Assembly (NCBI RefSeq): GCF_000585375.1
Contig: NZ_KK073874.1
Location: 7,785,913 to 7,849,912, forward strand
Source: Cryptosporangium arvum DSM 44712
GTDB taxonomy: Bacteria; Actinomycetota; Actinomycetes; Mycobacteriales; Cryptosporangiaceae
Reading direction: 5' to 3'
DNA length: 64,000 nucleotides
Shown here piece by piece: positions 46,842 through 54,138 of this stretch. The notes under the pieces are model-generated. The model had not been told where the DNA came from, searched no databases, and saw only the letters and a list, made by a program, of their open reading frames with translations. The translations under genes were made by a program, and so were the position numbers. Every line of letters starts with the position of its first letter. The first letter of the stretch is position 1.

Positions 46842-47669
46842 TCAGCCCGTGACGACCGCCACGGCCGTGGTTCCGGTGGGTAGCTCGCCCCTCTCGGCCA
46901 AGGCGGACACGCCGAACAGCATCTTGCCGACGTAGATCGGGTCGGGGCGCCAACCGAGCTCACCCTCGAAGTCGTCGAGGAACGCCTCCAGCGCCGGCGT
47001 CGACTTGGCGAAGCCGCGGTGGTGGTAGCGCGTCTCGATCGACCAGTCTCCGACCCGGCGGCCGAACGTGCGTCGCTGCAGCGCCTCGACCTCGGCGTCG
47101 AGGAACTCGCCGCCCTTCAGCGCCGAGAAGCCGATCGCTCGTTGGCCGGGACGCAGACCGCCGGCTATCCCCGCCAGCGTGCCGCCGGTGCCGACCGGGC
47201 AGCAGATCACGTCGAACGGCACGTCGATCTCGGTGACGATGTCGAGGCAACCGCGCACCGCGAGCTCGTTGGAGCCGCCCTCCGGCACCAGGTAGAAGTC
47301 CCCGAATTCGCGCCGTAGCGCCGCGACGACGTCCGGATCTCCGCTCCGGCGATAGGTGCCCCGGTCGAGGTACGTGAGCCGCATCCCGCGCGCGACCGCT
47401 TCGGCCAGGCTCGGGTTGAGCGGGCGGTGCTCCTCCCCGCGGATCACGCCGATCGTCTCGAAGCCGAAGAGCGTCCCGGCCGCCGCCACCGCGCGGATCA
47501 GGTTCGAGTACGCGCCGCCGAACGCCAGCAGGCGGCGATGCCCCTGCGCCCGGGCCGCGTCGAGGTTCAGCCGCAGCTTGCGGTACTTGTTGCCGGGCAG
47601 CTCCGGGTGGATCAGGTCGTCGCGTTTGAGCAGCACGGTGACGCCCCCGGCCACGGCCCACTCGACCAT
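46842..47669 (-). CDS. PLP-dependent D-cysteine desulfhydrase/ACC deaminase family protein
   Basis: The 275-residue enzyme has the PLP lysine in LPGNKYRKLRLNLDAARAQG and the preceding LLKRDDLIHPE, the phosphate-binding VGTGGTLAGIAGGL and LAFGGAYSNLIRAVAAAG. Members deaminate D-cysteine, other D-amino acids or 1-aminocyclopropane-1-carboxylate; the motif set cannot separate these. ATG 47669 overlaps the response-regulator stop as TGATG. The gene is therefore third in the kinase/regulator operon, an unusual companion for a two-component system. Confidence 0.82.
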   Translation of the reverse strand: MVEWAVAGGVTVLLKRDDLIHPELPGNKYRKLRLNLDAARAQGHRRLLAFGGAYSNLIRAVAAAGTLFGFETIGVIRGEEHRPLNPSLAEAVARGMRLTYLDRGTYRRSGDPDVVAALRREFGDFYLVPEGGSNELAVRGCLDIVTEIDVPFDVICCPVGTGGTLAGIAGGLRPGQRAIGFSALKGGEFLDAEVEALQRRTFGRRVGDWSIETRYHHRGFAKSTPALEAFLDDFEGELGWRPDPIYVGKMLFGVSALAERGELPTGTTAVAVVTG

Positions 47670-48340
47670 CAAGCCGGGCGGCCGCCCTTCGCGCGGACGA
47701 TGCCCAGGTCGTAGGCGAGGATCGTCGCGCGTACCCGGTCCCGGACGCCCAGCTTCGTCAGCAACGCGTTCACGTGGGTCTTCACGGTGCCGACCCCGAC
47801 GCCCAGCTCCTCGGCCAGCTCCGCGTTGGAGAGACCGGACGCCAGGAGCACGAACACCTCGCGTTCGCGGGCGGTCAGCCCGGCGAGCATGGACTCGGCC
47901 TCCGGGTCGGGCGGTGGGCCGCCCTCGGCGAAGGTGGCGATCAGCCGGCGGGTGACGGTGGGCGCGAGCATGCCCTCGCCGGCGGCCACCACCCGCACCG
48001 CGTTCAGGAGCTCCTCGGGCTCGGCGTCCTTGAGCAGGTAACCGGCCGCTCCGGCCCGGAGCGCCTCGTAGACGTAGGAGTCGAGATCGAACGTGGTCAG
48101 CACGACGACCCGGGGCGCGCCGGGCTGATCGGTGAGCAACCGGGTGGCGGTGAGGCCGTCCATGCCCGGCATCCGGATGTCCATCACGATGACGTCGGGC
48201 TGGAGCGACCTCGCCAGCTCGACGCCCGCGGCACCGTCGCCGGCTTCACCGACCACCGCGATGTCGGGCTCCGAGTCCAGGATCGCGGCGAACCCGGCCC
48301 GCAGCACCGGCTGGTCCTCGACCACCAGCACCCGGATCAT
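47669..48340 (-). CDS. NarL/LuxR-type response regulator
   Basis: The 223-residue protein has a receiver domain (VLVVEDQPVLRAGF with the acidic pocket, phospho-acceptor in DVIVMDIRMPGMDG, conserved Lys in YLLKDAEPEEL) and a C-terminal LuxR HTH (LTAREREVFVLLASGLSNAE and GVGVGTVKTHVNALLTK). ATG 48340 overlaps the kinase stop as ATGA, so the two are translated together. It is the only regulator near both duplicated kinases and the best candidate to bind the dyads at 50396 and 53227. Confidence 0.92.
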   Translation of the reverse strand: MIRVLVVEDQPVLRAGFAAILDSEPDIAVVGEAGDGAAGVELARSLQPDVIVMDIRMPGMDGLTATRLLTDQPGAPRVVVLTTFDLDSYVYEALRAGAAGYLLKDAEPEELLNAVRVVAAGEGMLAPTVTRRLIATFAEGGPPPDPEAESMLAGLTAREREVFVLLASGLSNAELAEELGVGVGTVKTHVNALLTKLGVRDRVRATILAYDLGIVRAKGGRPA

Positions 48341-50358
48341 GCCGACGCCGCCAGCGCACCGGGACGCTCGGTGCCCGCCGGCTCGGCCGCTCCCAGCGGC
48401 TCGGCGGTGGCAGCGGTGGTGGCGGGATCGAGCGCGGTGAGCAGCTCACGCATCGCCGCCAGTGCGGCTCGGGCCGCGGCCACCACGTCGTCGGGGTTGC
48501 CCGCGTCGGCGGCGGCCACGACCCGCTCGGTGTGCTGGAGCACCTGCTCACGCAACCCGCCGACCAGCCGGGCCCGCTCGGCCCTGGCCTCGCTCTCGGC
48601 GGCGGCGACCGCCGCGGTGACCGCGCTGTGCTCGCGACGCACGACACCGTCGCGCCGCAGACGAACCACGAACCCGCCGGCCCACGCGAGAACGAGCAGA
48701 GCCGTCACCGCCGCCCCCGTCAGCAGGCCGAGGAACACCGTGGGCGCCGGGTCGATCGCTCGGCCGGCGTCGGCGGCGTCCTTCACCCGCACGGCGATGG
48801 ACATCGCCCCGAGCACGGCGGCCGAGGCCGGCAGCACGGCCAGGCTCAGCCCCTGGTGGCGAGCGTGGGCACCGACCGTGTAGACGGCCACCGCCTCGGC
48901 GCCGATCGCGAAGATCAGCGCGGACGCGAGGTCGTCGGTCATCCCGTCGGGGGTGAGCCAGAGCGGCCACAGCCCGGCGGTGGCGAACACGCCGGCCCAG
49001 GCCACCCAGGGCGCGCGGCTCCGGACCAGCAGCGGTGCGCCGTGCGCGATCAGCAGGAACAGCGGCCAGATGCCGAGCGGGACCGGATGGACCGTCCAGT
49101 TGTCCTCGTCGGGGATGTAGAGACCGGCGATCGAGAACGCGAGCAGCACCGCGACGATGCCGACGTCGATGAGCGGTGTGCGGTGCGCGGCCCACCAACG
49201 CTCGGAGCGGTTCCTCGCCGGTGCGGTGGCCGGGACGGTGGCGCTCACCTGCCAGCCGTCGTCGCCGGCCGGGCCCGCGGTGAGGGTGCCGCCGAGCGCG
49301 GTGACCCGCCGCCGCAGGCCGGCGAGGCCGCGCCCCGAGCCGAGGCGCACCACGTTGCCGCCGGCGACGAGGTCGTTGTCGACGACGACGGCCAGCTGCC
49401 CGACGTCGGACGCGGGGTTGGTGGTGAGGGCGAGCCGGACGCGGACCGTGCCACCGGGTGCGTAGCGCAGGGTGTTCGTGAGCGCCTCGCGGACGACCGC
49501 GTGGGCGGCCTCGGTGACCGGCAGCGGGAGCGGCCCCGGGTCGGGTGCCTCGAGCGTGACGTGCTGCCCGAGGCGGGTGAACGCGTCGCTCAGCTCGGCC
49601 AGGCGATCGGAGAGGTGCGGGCCGGTGGGGGCGGGGCCGGAGCCGCCGAGCAGCGCGCGCAGCTCGGCGAGGGCCTTCCGGCCGGTGGTGGCGGCCGCGG
49701 TGAGGCTCTCGGCGAGCAGCTCCGGACGGCTGCGGCGCAACCGGACGGCCGCGTTCACCGAGACGACGATCGATGTCAGATGGTGCGCGCTGACGTCGTG
49801 CAGCTCGGCCGAGAGGCGCTGACGTTCGCCCGAGCCGGCCTCGCGGTGGGCGGTGCGGGCCTGGCGCAGTGCGTCGGCGGCGGCCTGCCGACCGGCCCTC
49901 CACTGCTGGCGCGCGACCCCGCCGCCCGCGACGACCACGTACGCGACCACCATGAACCCGTACTCGGCGATGCCCTCGCTGGTGACGCCGAACTCGAGTG
50001 CGCCGACGGCGGCCTGCCACACCACCAGCGACACCAGCGCGATCACCCAGGTGTGCCGCGGCCGCCAGGCAGCCACCGAGTACAGCGCGACGAGATCGGC
50101 CAGCGCCAACGTCAGCACACCGTCGTACGGGCTGGCCAGGACCGCGACCGTGATCGCGGCGGCCGCCCCCACCAGCGAGGCCACCGGCCGGGTGCGCCGC
50201 AGGCACAGGGCGGCCGCGCCGAGGAGCGTCGCGAGCACGGTGATGCCGGCCGACAGCGGATCGCCGTGCTCGGGCGCACCGGGCACCCAGCCGCCCGGCC
50301 ACCACACCAGCTGGGTGGCGGCGAGCACCAGGGGCAGGATCACCGTCTTCATCGGCAT
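48337..50358 (-). CDS. sensor histidine kinase with a second, degenerate kinase half
   Basis: The 673-residue protein contains two modules. The first has four or five membrane helices (1-150), a HisKA_3 dimerisation domain with LSAELHDVSAHHLTS (phospho-accepting His187), and a HATPase domain (HAVVREALTNTLRYAPGG, GSGRGLAGLRRRVTALGG). The second (about 390-673) has six membrane helices and a HisKA_3-like helix ERARLVGGLREQVLQHTERV in which Arg603 replaces the His, then DPDDVV-type helices and no ATPase domain. It resembles a kinase fused to a dead paralogue lacking its catalytic part. It is divergent from a CPBP protease gene. Confidence 0.85.
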   Translation of the reverse strand: MPMKTVILPLVLAATQLVWWPGGWVPGAPEHGDPLSAGITVLATLLGAAALCLRRTRPVASLVGAAAAITVAVLASPYDGVLTLALADLVALYSVAAWRPRHTWVIALVSLVVWQAAVGALEFGVTSEGIAEYGFMVVAYVVVAGGGVARQQWRAGRQAAADALRQARTAHREAGSGERQRLSAELHDVSAHHLTSIVVSVNAAVRLRRSRPELLAESLTAAATTGRKALAELRALLGGSGPAPTGPHLSDRLAELSDAFTRLGQHVTLEAPDPGPLPLPVTEAAHAVVREALTNTLRYAPGGTVRVRLALTTNPASDVGQLAVVVDNDLVAGGNVVRLGSGRGLAGLRRRVTALGGTLTAGPAGDDGWQVSATVPATAPARNRSERWWAAHRTPLIDVGIVAVLLAFSIAGLYIPDEDNWTVHPVPLGIWPLFLLIAHGAPLLVRSRAPWVAWAGVFATAGLWPLWLTPDGMTDDLASALIFAIGAEAVAVYTVGAHARHQGLSLAVLPASAAVLGAMSIAVRVKDAADAGRAIDPAPTVFLGLLTGAAVTALLVLAWAGGFVVRLRRDGVVRREHSAVTAAVAAAESEARAERARLVGGLREQVLQHTERVVAAADAGNPDDVVAAARAALAAMRELLTALDPATTAATAEPLGAAEPAGTERPGALAASA

Positions 50359-50395
50359 CGACCTTAGGGGGTCGGTCCGACAAGATCTGTCAGGT

Positions 50396-50413
50396 CTCTA
50401 TCGCTCGGTAGAG
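50396..50413. promoter_or_regulatory. 18-bp dyad between kinase and CPBP protease genes, copy 1
   Basis: CTCTATCGCTCGGTAGAG has arms CTCTAyC/GGTAGAG around a 4-nt centre. The dyad extends by GT and AC on the outside here. It lies 58 nt before the CPBP start and 38 nt before the kinase start. The same element, differing at one central base, is at 53227-53244, again 58 nt before a CPBP start. Conservation of sequence and spacing points to a shared operator for the divergent genes. Confidence 0.65.
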
Positions 50414-50470
50414 ACGGGGATCCTGCGCACAGCCGATGCGCCCGGCTCCCGCCGTGCCGACCCTGGAACC

Positions 50471-51379
50471 ATGACCCCCTACCACCGGCTCGCCCGGACA
50501 CCGACGAACCGCTGGTGGAAGACCCTGCTCGGCTTCGTGCTGGCGCCGATCGCCTACCTGGTGGTCGTCGCCGCCGGAGCGTTGGTGCTCCTGATCCCCG
50601 GCGTCGGCTCCGACGTCGGGCCGCTGGCCGAGTTCGCGCTGGGCATCGGTGCGGTGGCCGTGATGCTGCCGATCGTCCTGCTCGTCGCCCGGGTGACCCA
50701 GGGGCGCCGCCCCGGCACGCTCTCGTCGGTGCTGGGGCGGTTGCGCTGGCGGTGGATGCTGCTCTGCGGCCTGCTCGCCATCGGGACGTCGGTGCTGTCG
50801 CTGGCGCTGCTGGCGGTGGTCGGCCCGGACGGTGGCGAGGAGTACCGGTTCGCCGGCTGGGCCACGTTCGCCCCGGCGCTGCTCGTCGTGCTCGCGCTGG
50901 TGCCGGTGCAGGCGGCCGCCGAGGAGTACCTGTGCCGCGGCTGGATCCTGCAGTCGGTCGCCGCGTTCGTCGGGCTGCGCTGGATCGCGATCGGCGTCCA
51001 GGCGCTCGTGTTCACGCTGCTGCACGGCATCGGAACGGGCTGGGGCTTCGTCGATCTGATGGTGTTCGGCGGGGTCGCGGGGTGGCTGGCGATCCGGACC
51101 GGCGGGCTGGAGGCCGGCATCGCGGCCCACGCCGTGAACAACGTCCTGGCGTTCGGGATCGCGGTCAGCGCGGTCGGCGGGCTGACGATCGACGAGACCG
51201 CGGCGGACTCCGGCTGGCAGCTGGCCGTAGTCGACAGCGTGGTGTTCGTCGGTTACGCGGTCGCGGTGCACTGGCTGGCGAAGCGGATGCGGGTCGAGTC
51301 GACGCGTCCCGAGTCGACGCCTCCCGAGCCCGCGCGGATCACACCAGAACCCGCGCTGGTGCCGGATCGAGCGCGGTGA
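50471..51379 (+). CDS. CPBP family intramembrane metalloprotease, copy 1
   Basis: The 302-residue polytopic membrane protein has the CPBP (CAAX protease/bacteriocin-processing) motifs AAAEEYLCRGWILQSV with the Glu-Glu-x3-Arg signature, VFTLLHGIGTG, and the late HAVNNVLAFG. These supply the glutamate zwitter/metal site and the metal-binding His residues inside the membrane. Bacterial members serve in prenyl-protein processing, bacteriocin immunity or sigma-related proteolysis. ATG 50471 has GGAAC upstream. The Pro-rich tail overlaps the neighbouring kinase gene by 41 bp. Confidence 0.85.
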   Translation: MTPYHRLARTPTNRWWKTLLGFVLAPIAYLVVVAAGALVLLIPGVGSDVGPLAEFALGIGAVAVMLPIVLLVARVTQGRRPGTLSSVLGRLRWRWMLLCGLLAIGTSVLSLALLAVVGPDGGEEYRFAGWATFAPALLVVLALVPVQAAAEEYLCRGWILQSVAAFVGLRWIAIGVQALVFTLLHGIGTGWGFVDLMVFGGVAGWLAIRTGGLEAGIAAHAVNNVLAFGIAVSAVGGLTIDETAADSGWQLAVVDSVVFVGYAVAVHWLAKRMRVESTRPESTPPEPARITPEPALVPDRAR

Positions 51380-53208
51380 GCAGCTCGCGCATGGCCGCCA
51401 GCGCGGCCCGCGCAGCGGCCAGCACCTCGTCCGGATCACCCCGGTCGGCTGCGAGAACGACCCGGTCGGTCTGCCGCAGCACCTGCTCGCGCAGGCCGCC
51501 GACGAGCCGGGAGCGCTCCGCCCGCGCTTCCCGCTCGGCCGCCGACACCGCGGCCGTGACGGCGCCGTCCTCCCGGCCGACGATCCGGTCACGCCGCAAT
51601 CGCACCGCGAACCCGACGGCCCAGGGCACCGCGGCGACGGCGGTGATCGCGGCCGCGATGGACACGAAGATCACGAGGTATCCGAGCGCGGACTTCAGCT
51701 CTTCGCTCTCGTACACCGCCACGCCGATCGTGGCCAGCAGCCCGGTGATCGCGCCGGTGGCCGGCGCCACCAGAAGGCTCGCCCACTTGTGCCGGGCGTG
51801 CGCACCCACCGCGTAGACCGCGACGAACTCCGTGCCGACGGCGAACATGATCAGGTCGAGCCGTCCCTGGGCGGCGGCCCCGCCGGCGTTGAACATCCAG
51901 ATCGGCCACAGCGCGACCGTCGCGAACACCGCCGCCCACGCGGCCCACGGGGTCCGGCGCCGGTACAGCAGCGGCAGCGTGTGCAGGGGCGTCACGGCCG
52001 CCAGCAACAGCCAGGTACGGCCGTCCAGCGGCGCCGACTCGTCCGGGATGAGCGCCAGGCCCAGCGGCATCGCGAGCAGCAGCGCCGTCGTGGTGACGTC
52101 GATCAGTTCGGGCACCCAGCGACTCCGGACCTTGGCCGTGGTCGACACGGTTGCCACCACGCGCCAGCCGCCCCCTTCGATCGGGCCGGCGGTCAGGACT
52201 CCGCCGAGCAGGTGCGCCCGTCGTCGCAGGCCACCGAGGCCGCGTCCGGAGCCGAGCCGCTCGCCGGGGCCCGCGCCGGCGTCGTTCTCGACCACGACGT
52301 GCAGCCGCCCGACGTCGAGCAGGAGACGGACGCGGACCGTGGCGCCGGGTGCGTACCGCACGGTGTTCGTCAGCGCTTCCCGCACGATCGCGTGCACGAG
52401 CTCGGCGACCGGCGCGGTCAGGGAGTCCAGCGCCGACAGTTCGACCGTGACGTGCTGGCCGAGCCGGGTGAACGCGTCGGCGAGTTCGGCCAGCCGCTCG
52501 CGCAGCGGCGCCTCGGCCGGAGCGTCGCCGTCGGCCAGGAGGCGGCGCAGTTCCTCCTGGGCGGCGCGACCGGTCTCGCCGGCCATCCGGAGGCTCTCGG
52601 CCTCCAGCGCTTTCACCCGGCTCGCGGCGTTCATCGTGACGACGATCGAGGTGAGGTGGTGGGCGCTGACGTCGTGCAGCTCCTCGGAGAGCCGACGCCG
52701 CTCACCCGCACCCGCCTCCAGGTGCGCGACCTGCGCCTGCTGCAACGCGTCGGCCGCCGCCCGCCGCCCGGCCAGCCACTGGTGGCGCGCCACGCCGCCG
52801 CCCGCCACCAGCAGGTAGCTCAGCACCATCAACCCGGTCTCGGCCACGTACCGGGCGGGCGCTGTCCCAGACCGCTGTCGCGATCGCCGCCTGCCAGACG
52901 CAGAGGAGGCCGAGCGTGATCACCCAGACGCGCCTGGCCTCGCGGACGACCACCGAGTACAGCGCGATCATGTCGAAGATCTGCACCACGGGGAGCGACT
53001 CCGCCGGTGTGGTCAGCTGCCCGGCGGTGAGTCCGGCGATCACCCCGGCGAACGCGATCAGCGGGCGCCGCCGACGCCAGCCCAGCGCCACCGTGACGAC
53101 GACGACCGCCAGCACGCCGACGTACTCGTCGGGGTGTGGGATCAGGTGGCGCGGCCAATAGAACAACTGCAGCACGCCCAGCGCGACCGGCAGCGTCCAG
53201 TTTCTCAT
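51339..53208 (-). pseudogene. frameshifted paralogue of the two-module histidine kinase
   Basis: Start ATG 53208 opens MRNWTLPVALGVLQLFYWPR and runs through membrane helices to VWQAAIATAVWDSARP near 52855. Homology to the neighbouring kinase then continues in another frame: AETGLMVLSYLLVAGGGVAR, LSEELHDVSAHHLTS (His kept), HAIVREALTNTVRYAPGA, GSGRGLGGLRRRAHLLGG, then six helices and LVGGLREQVLRQTDRVV, where the second His is again Arg. The shift needs one base skipped near CCCGCCCGG (52850-52862). The downstream frame alone, from GTG 52847, could still give a kinase lacking most membrane helices. No regulator gene adjoins it. Confidence 0.8.
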
Positions 53209-53226
53209 CGACTCGAACCCTAAGGG

Positions 53227-53244
53227 CTCTATCTCTCGGTAGAG
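53227..53244. promoter_or_regulatory. 18-bp dyad between kinase and CPBP protease genes, copy 2
   Basis: CTCTATCTCTCGGTAGAG differs from the 50396 copy at one central base. It lies 58 nt before the second CPBP start and 19 nt before the frameshifted kinase start. The flanking segment TCCTGC-x-C-x-CAGCCGA downstream is also shared by both copies. Confidence 0.65.
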
Positions 53245-53301
53245 GCCGTTTTCCTGCTCGCAGCCGACGAGATGGACCAGAGCCGGCCCGACGCTGAAGT
53301 C

Positions 53302-54138
53302 ATGCTGATCTATGCCACGCCCTTGATCCCCTACCACCGCCTCGCCGCGGCGACCGCTAACCGCCTGCGGCCGACGCTCGTCGCGTTCGCGCTGGTAGCA
53401 GCCGTCTATACGCTCGTGGTGCTCGGCCTGAGAACCCCGGACGTGAACCCGGCCGCTCGCTACGCGCTCGATCTCGCCCCCGCCGCCCTGCTGCTCCCGC
53501 TCACGTTCCTCGCGGTTCGGTGGGCGCAGGAGCGGAGACCGGGGACGCTCTCGTCGGTCCAGGGGCAGCTGCGGATGCGCTGGCTCGGCATCTGCGCGCT
53601 GGTGGCCGTGCCGGCGGCCGTGTACTCGTTCACGTGGCCGGGATGGACCACGTTCGTGCCGATGGTGATGGTCGCCGTCGCGCTGGTGCCGGTGCAGGCC
53701 GCGGCCGAGGAGTACCTGTTCCGCGGCTGGCTCCTGCAGTCGATCGGGGCGCACCTGACGTCGCCGTGGCCCGCGGTGGGCCTGCAGGCGGTGCTGTTCG
53801 CGCTGGTCCACGGCTCGTGGACGTACGCGGTGATCGGCGTCGTGGCCGGGTGGCTGACGGTGCGGACCGGTGGCCTCGAGGCCGCGATCGCGTTCCACGT
53901 CGTCAGCACCGTGGTGACTTTCGGTCAGGAGACCGCGGCGAACGTCGTCTTCGTGGTGGCTTACGGCCTGGTCGTGCGCTGGCTGGCGATCCGGCTGCGG
54001 GTCGGGACGAGGGCGCGCGGCGCGGCGTCGCTGACCCCGCTCGCCGAGGTGTCCAGGCGCACCGTTCCCACCACCCGCGGACCGGTCCTGACCAGGCGGT
54101 CCAATCGTTCGGAGGTGTCGTCGTCGTGTGGCAGGTAG
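53302..54138 (+). CDS. CPBP family intramembrane metalloprotease, copy 2
   Basis: The 278-residue membrane protein is a close paralogue of the 50471 gene: shared PYHRLA start, ERRPGTLSSVQGQLRMRWLG, AAAEEYLFRGWLLQSIGAH, LFALVHGSWTYAVIG, TGGLEAAIAFHVVSTVV. Catalytic Glu pair, Arg and both His are present. ATG 53302 was chosen because its distance to the dyad (58 nt) equals that of copy 1; ATG 53272 is possible. The last 60 residues lack similarity and lie antisense to the XRE regulator gene over 178 bp. Confidence 0.83.
   Translation: MLIYATPLIPYHRLAAATANRLRPTLVAFALVAAVYTLVVLGLRTPDVNPAARYALDLAPAALLLPLTFLAVRWAQERRPGTLSSVQGQLRMRWLGICALVAVPAAVYSFTWPGWTTFVPMVMVAVALVPVQAAAEEYLFRGWLLQSIGAHLTSPWPAVGLQAVLFALVHGSWTYAVIGVVAGWLTVRTGGLEAAIAFHVVSTVVTFGQETAANVVFVVAYGLVVRWLAIRLRVGTRARGAASLTPLAEVSRRTVPTTRGPVLTRRSNRSEVSSSCGR

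Follow-up and report, generated by a model that had tools for sequence, protein, structure and literature searches.

Organization of the locus

Two neighbouring units lie within the analysed window (the whole stretch of 64,000 nucleotides), and in each a histidine kinase gene diverges from a gene for a CPBP intramembrane protease, with one dyad in the intergenic region between them (Table 1). The response regulator gene RR overlaps HK1 by 4 bases and is the sole one for both units, as an earlier sequence-only reading had stated. CPBP1 and HK2 lie tail to tail with an overlap of 41 bp. HK1 and HK2 are 55% identical over 523 aa and CPBP1 and CPBP2 44% identical over 276 aa, which bears out the paralogy of kinase and protease that had been claimed for the two units. 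The tail of CPBP2 (53961-54138) overlaps by 178 bp the 3' end of a gene for an XRE/MmyB-type regulator on the opposite strand; at two loci in other genomes the C-terminal sequence of the CPBP protein resembles this tail.

Table 1. Features of the RR–HK1/CPBP1 and HK2/CPBP2 units (positions in the window)
Feature	Positions	Strand	Basis
RR, NarL/LuxR-type response regulator, probable dyad-binding protein	47669..48340	-	Response_reg + GerE domains
HK1, DesK-like kinase half + degenerate second half	48337..50358	-	HisKA_3 + HATPase_c; halves homologous
Dyad 1, candidate RR operator of CPBP1	50396..50413	.	pattern match, conserved spacing in relatives
Conserved boxes TCCTGC ... GATG, dyad 1 to CPBP1 start	50420..50438	+	49-site logo
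CPBP1, intramembrane protease, complete EExxxR, H, HxxxN motifs	50471..51379	+	PF02517, motifs, model
HK2, kinase paralogous to HK1, frame break near 52847-52866	51339..53208	-	ORF reading; groups with G003 copy
Dyad 2, before CPBP2	53227..53244	.	pattern match
CPBP2, degenerate paralogue with HxxxT in place of HxxxN + internal deletions	53302..54138	+	alignment of homologues

Kinase, response regulator and protease of unit 1

HK1 is, by sequence, an intact DesK-like half joined to a degenerate copy of itself. In the N-terminal half HisKA_3, the phospho-accepting histidine and the N and G boxes are intact, as in DesK-like kinases. Profile comparison of the N- and C-terminal halves of 34 kinase homologues matched them over 322 columns (probability 98.4, E 5e-15), and the AlphaFold model of HK1 (mean pLDDT 74.5) contains an identical helix order twice, ending after the second hairpin. 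The phospho-acceptor histidine of the C-terminal half is replaced in about 30 of the 34 homologues. A C-terminal ATPase-like remnant is retained in relatives from Streptomyces, Micromonospora and genome G004, and is lost in this genus. The kinase had previously been described as having two modules: the homology of the halves stands, but the second is degenerate and here is without an ATPase domain. As a sensor layout, a kinase fused with a degenerate copy of itself is unusual; envelope sensing by a DesK-like kinase of this kind, which has no obvious extracytoplasmic sensor domain, is plausible.

RR consists of a receiver and a GerE domain, as in response regulators of the NarL/LuxR type; its closest solved structures are VraR and NarL, with DesR also matched, and its recognition region is kept in homologous modules.

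CPBP1 matches PF02517 (E 1.7e-16) and contains all of the EExxxR, H and HxxxN motifs that mark CPBP/Rce1-like proteins. The catalytic motifs are intact in 84 of 85 CPBP homologues, and CPBP1 is a predicted protease. A sequence search of the PDB with the CPBP alignment gave no match, while fold comparison of the CPBP1 model (pLDDT 85.5) did, with SpdC (6u0o, Z 13.0) followed by Rce1 (Z 9.4) and the next row at 6.3.

Unit 2

The second unit is not an equal of the first. The reading frame of HK2 changes between the N-terminal part (53208 to about 52866) and the C-terminal part (52847-51339), and because codon bias is intact on either side of the break, the shift is either recent or a sequencing or assembly error. 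CPBP2, though still matching the PF02517 fold family, lacks the complete set of catalytic motifs: it has HxxxT for HxxxN, unique among the 85 aligned homologues, and has lost two internal segments. HK2 clusters in the kinase tree with the sole G003 copy found (100/99), while the sole copies found in G001 and G002 cluster with HK1 (99/97); the placement of CPBP2 in the CPBP tree is not resolved. A recent tandem duplication is rejected on the basis of these two kinase groupings. Because HK2 groups with the copy of another species, the paralogues probably predate the split of these species and were then lost differentially; transfer between species is a less likely source of the pattern. The tandemly duplicated module proposed earlier holds as paralogous units, not as a recent or equal pair, and the idea of two equivalent units served by one regulator is not supported, since unit 2 is degenerating. 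Unit 2 looks like an old paralogous pair in decay, a relic, and RR–HK1/CPBP1 would be the working system in the strain.

The dyad and its spacing

The dyad CTCTATCkCTCGGTAGAG occurs at exactly two sites in the window, both with 0 mismatches and one in each intergenic region as previously reported, where 0.12 matches are expected at up to 3 mismatches. In the 9.2-Mb chromosome dyads 1 and 2 are the only sites with fewer than 2 mismatches to the exact pattern. The spacing of 58 nt that had been noted also holds: the last base of the dyad precedes the CPBP ATG by 58 nt in both units (starts at 50471 and 53302), provided that the second in-frame ATG of CPBP2, 53302 instead of 53272, is used, and this start is favoured because dozens of homologues show a spacing of 57-59.

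Further dyads of the general form were considered as operators and rejected, their frequency in the genus being no higher than that of the reversed pattern; at five loci elsewhere with general-form sites the neighbours are unrelated genes. The sequence CTCTACCTTTCGGTAGAG is flanked by a long ORF and a gene for a small membrane protein at L144 (G002) and, with one mismatch, at L146 (G001).

All four genomes of the genus carry the dyad at the syntenic unit, the three others having one syntenic RR–HK/CPBP unit each. A search for relatives with HK1 alone as query gave no match; a scan with the CPBP alignment succeeded, and the best 80 of its 430 matches were taken as the sample. In 29 of these 80 (Streptomyces/Micromonosporaceae) the CPBP gene has a facing kinase of the same type. 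At 28 of the 29 facing loci the end of a site lies 56-59 nt ahead of an in-frame ATG of the CPBP gene, where dinucleotide shuffles lead one to expect 2.9; the count of 28 is somewhat favourable, as the consensus (at least 10 of 14 positions) was relaxed after these loci had been viewed, and the loci are not independent, as most are from Streptomyces and shuffles ignore kinship. Strict sites are found at 20/29 CPBP loci with a facing kinase and 11/51 without (Fisher p 4e-5). In the scan for strict sites few occur at most other spacings; a lesser peak at 22-26 nt is taken to be these sites again, with the distance counted to an alternative start further upstream.

The logo of 49 sites, with dyad–ATG spacing of 57-59, contains the dyad, a TTCnTGC box at +7 to +13 and a GATG box at +22 to +25 (both counted from the dyad), then, at -12 to -7, an A...T element, and the ATG itself (49/49). 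The TCCTGC ... GATG boxes of the present locus are possibly a second site or a -35 region. At two loci kinase, RR and CPBP genes are co-directional and the site still lies 58 nt before CPBP. The distance from dyad to kinase start varies widely among loci.

The association of kinase, CPBP gene and dyad spans three families, so that its recurrence, which the sequence-only reading had set as a test, was confirmed; control of a CPBP gene by kinase and regulator through one operator type, as had been suggested, gains support from it. In three Streptomyces-type loci a sister kinase–RR branch faces a gene for a small, apparently secreted protein instead of a CPBP gene, with a similar dyad between the two.

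CPBP genes without an adjacent kinase

In seven Actinoplanes-type genomes the CPBP gene has no adjacent kinase and keeps the site at 58-59 nt, and all seven (7/7) encode the two-module kinase and an adjacent RR elsewhere. Across the seven genomes the site in its Actinoplanes form was counted 8 times, 6 of these at the CPBP promoter, a count that reflects rarity and not independent discovery, the pattern being derived from those same sites; it is mostly absent upstream of the kinase. This arrangement suggests control in trans. In Actinoplanes the TTCnTGC and GATG boxes together make up a second palindrome (GGATCCGGCCGTGGCCGGATCC in L037, for example), which may be a second regulator site.

Proposed regulation and alternative explanations

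Taken together, the sequence comparisons indicate that the two-component–CPBP module is real and conserved, in part as the earlier reading had it, and that its candidate operator has been mapped. The dyad is most likely the response-regulator operator of the CPBP promoter. In the model that is judged, with some confidence, the best account of the whole, RR of a DesK/NarL-type system would bind the dyad, whose centre lies about 66 bp before the CPBP start codon, and activate a probably leaderless CPBP promoter; an activator site near -66 of such a promoter is compatible with the logo. The N-terminal half of the kinase would be the active one, and the degenerate copy may act as a sensor or regulatory half. 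CPBP would then act in the membrane, most likely on the kinase itself or on a membrane substrate, feedback on the kinase being proposed by analogy with the action of SpdC on WalK. Conservation of the operator supports two-component control of the CPBP gene; the sign of the control and the identity of the binding protein are beyond its reach.

It is considerably less probable that RR represses the CPBP gene from the dyad or mainly autoregulates the divergent kinase operon. The site does lie between both promoters, and in unit 2 very near the kinase start, but it keeps a set distance from the CPBP start and a varying one from the kinase start, and in Actinoplanes it stays with the CPBP gene and is mostly missing from the kinase. 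Use of the dyad by a DNA-binding protein other than RR appears more unlikely again. Such a binder could account for two loci (L086 and L110) that keep the site at the CPBP gene, yet in whose genomes no clear two-module kinase was found, and the XRE/MmyB-type regulator gene adjoins CPBP2; however, strict sites track the facing kinase, as counted above, and the XRE-type gene is not found beside the module outside the genus.

CPBP/Abi proteins are frequently annotated as self-immunity proteins. A self-immunity circuit, raised in the earlier reading and taken here as directed against a bacteriocin-like peptide, would fit this annotation but is very improbable: across the neighbourhoods of the families only HK, RR and CPBP recur, and no precursor peptide, bacteriocin or transporter gene was found to recur with them. 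That the dyad forms an RNA hairpin in the CPBP leader, as its palindromic form would allow, is least credible of all, since promoter-like elements are conserved downstream of it and, in 37 distinct sites compared, its two arms show no covariation, as expected of a protein-binding site.

For most CPBP proteins, a widespread group, neither trigger nor substrate is known. With a kinase, a regulator and a mapped candidate operator whose geometry is fixed, the induction of one CPBP family is open to direct experiment, also in Streptomyces, which is tractable. A bolder reading, offered tentatively and rather more doubtful than the regulatory model, sees a module conserved in actinobacteria: the kinase, joined to its degenerate copy, would control an intramembrane protease through one fixed-geometry operator, and the protease would cleave or gate the kinase, closing a proteolytic feedback loop that has no earlier description.

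Comparison with known systems

A literature search among papers available without subscription returned no prior account of a CPBP gene controlled by a two-component system in Streptomyces. As a working analogue, SpdC–WalKR of Staphylococcus aureus comes closest: there a two-component system controls a membrane protein of CPBP fold, the one to which the CPBP1 model is most similar in structure. WalKR induces SpdC, which in turn dampens WalKR by contacting the kinase WalK via its transmembrane part (PMC5854430); the same paper mentions the self-immunity annotation of Abi/CPBP proteins. SpdC–WalKR differs in its kinase and regulator families and has no linked divergent arrangement of this type, and in the present family the catalytic motifs are intact in 84/85 homologues.

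AbrC1/C2/C3 of Streptomyces coelicolor also combines two kinases with one response regulator, both kinases being intact and needed (PMC4428217), whereas HK2 seems to be broken, and the description of AbrC mentions no CPBP gene. AbsA1 of S. coelicolor, an atypical kinase reported with one C-terminal transmembrane segment (PMC9739842), likewise has a membrane part at its C-terminal end as well; compared by description, AbsA1/AbsA2 differs in that single segment and in having no whole second kinase-like half. DesK/DesR-like systems are matched by both signalling components, the kinase core of HK1 resembling DesK structures and RR resembling VraR, NarL and DesR; their target, however, is a desaturase, while here it would be a CPBP protein, and the kinase carries a second, degenerate half.
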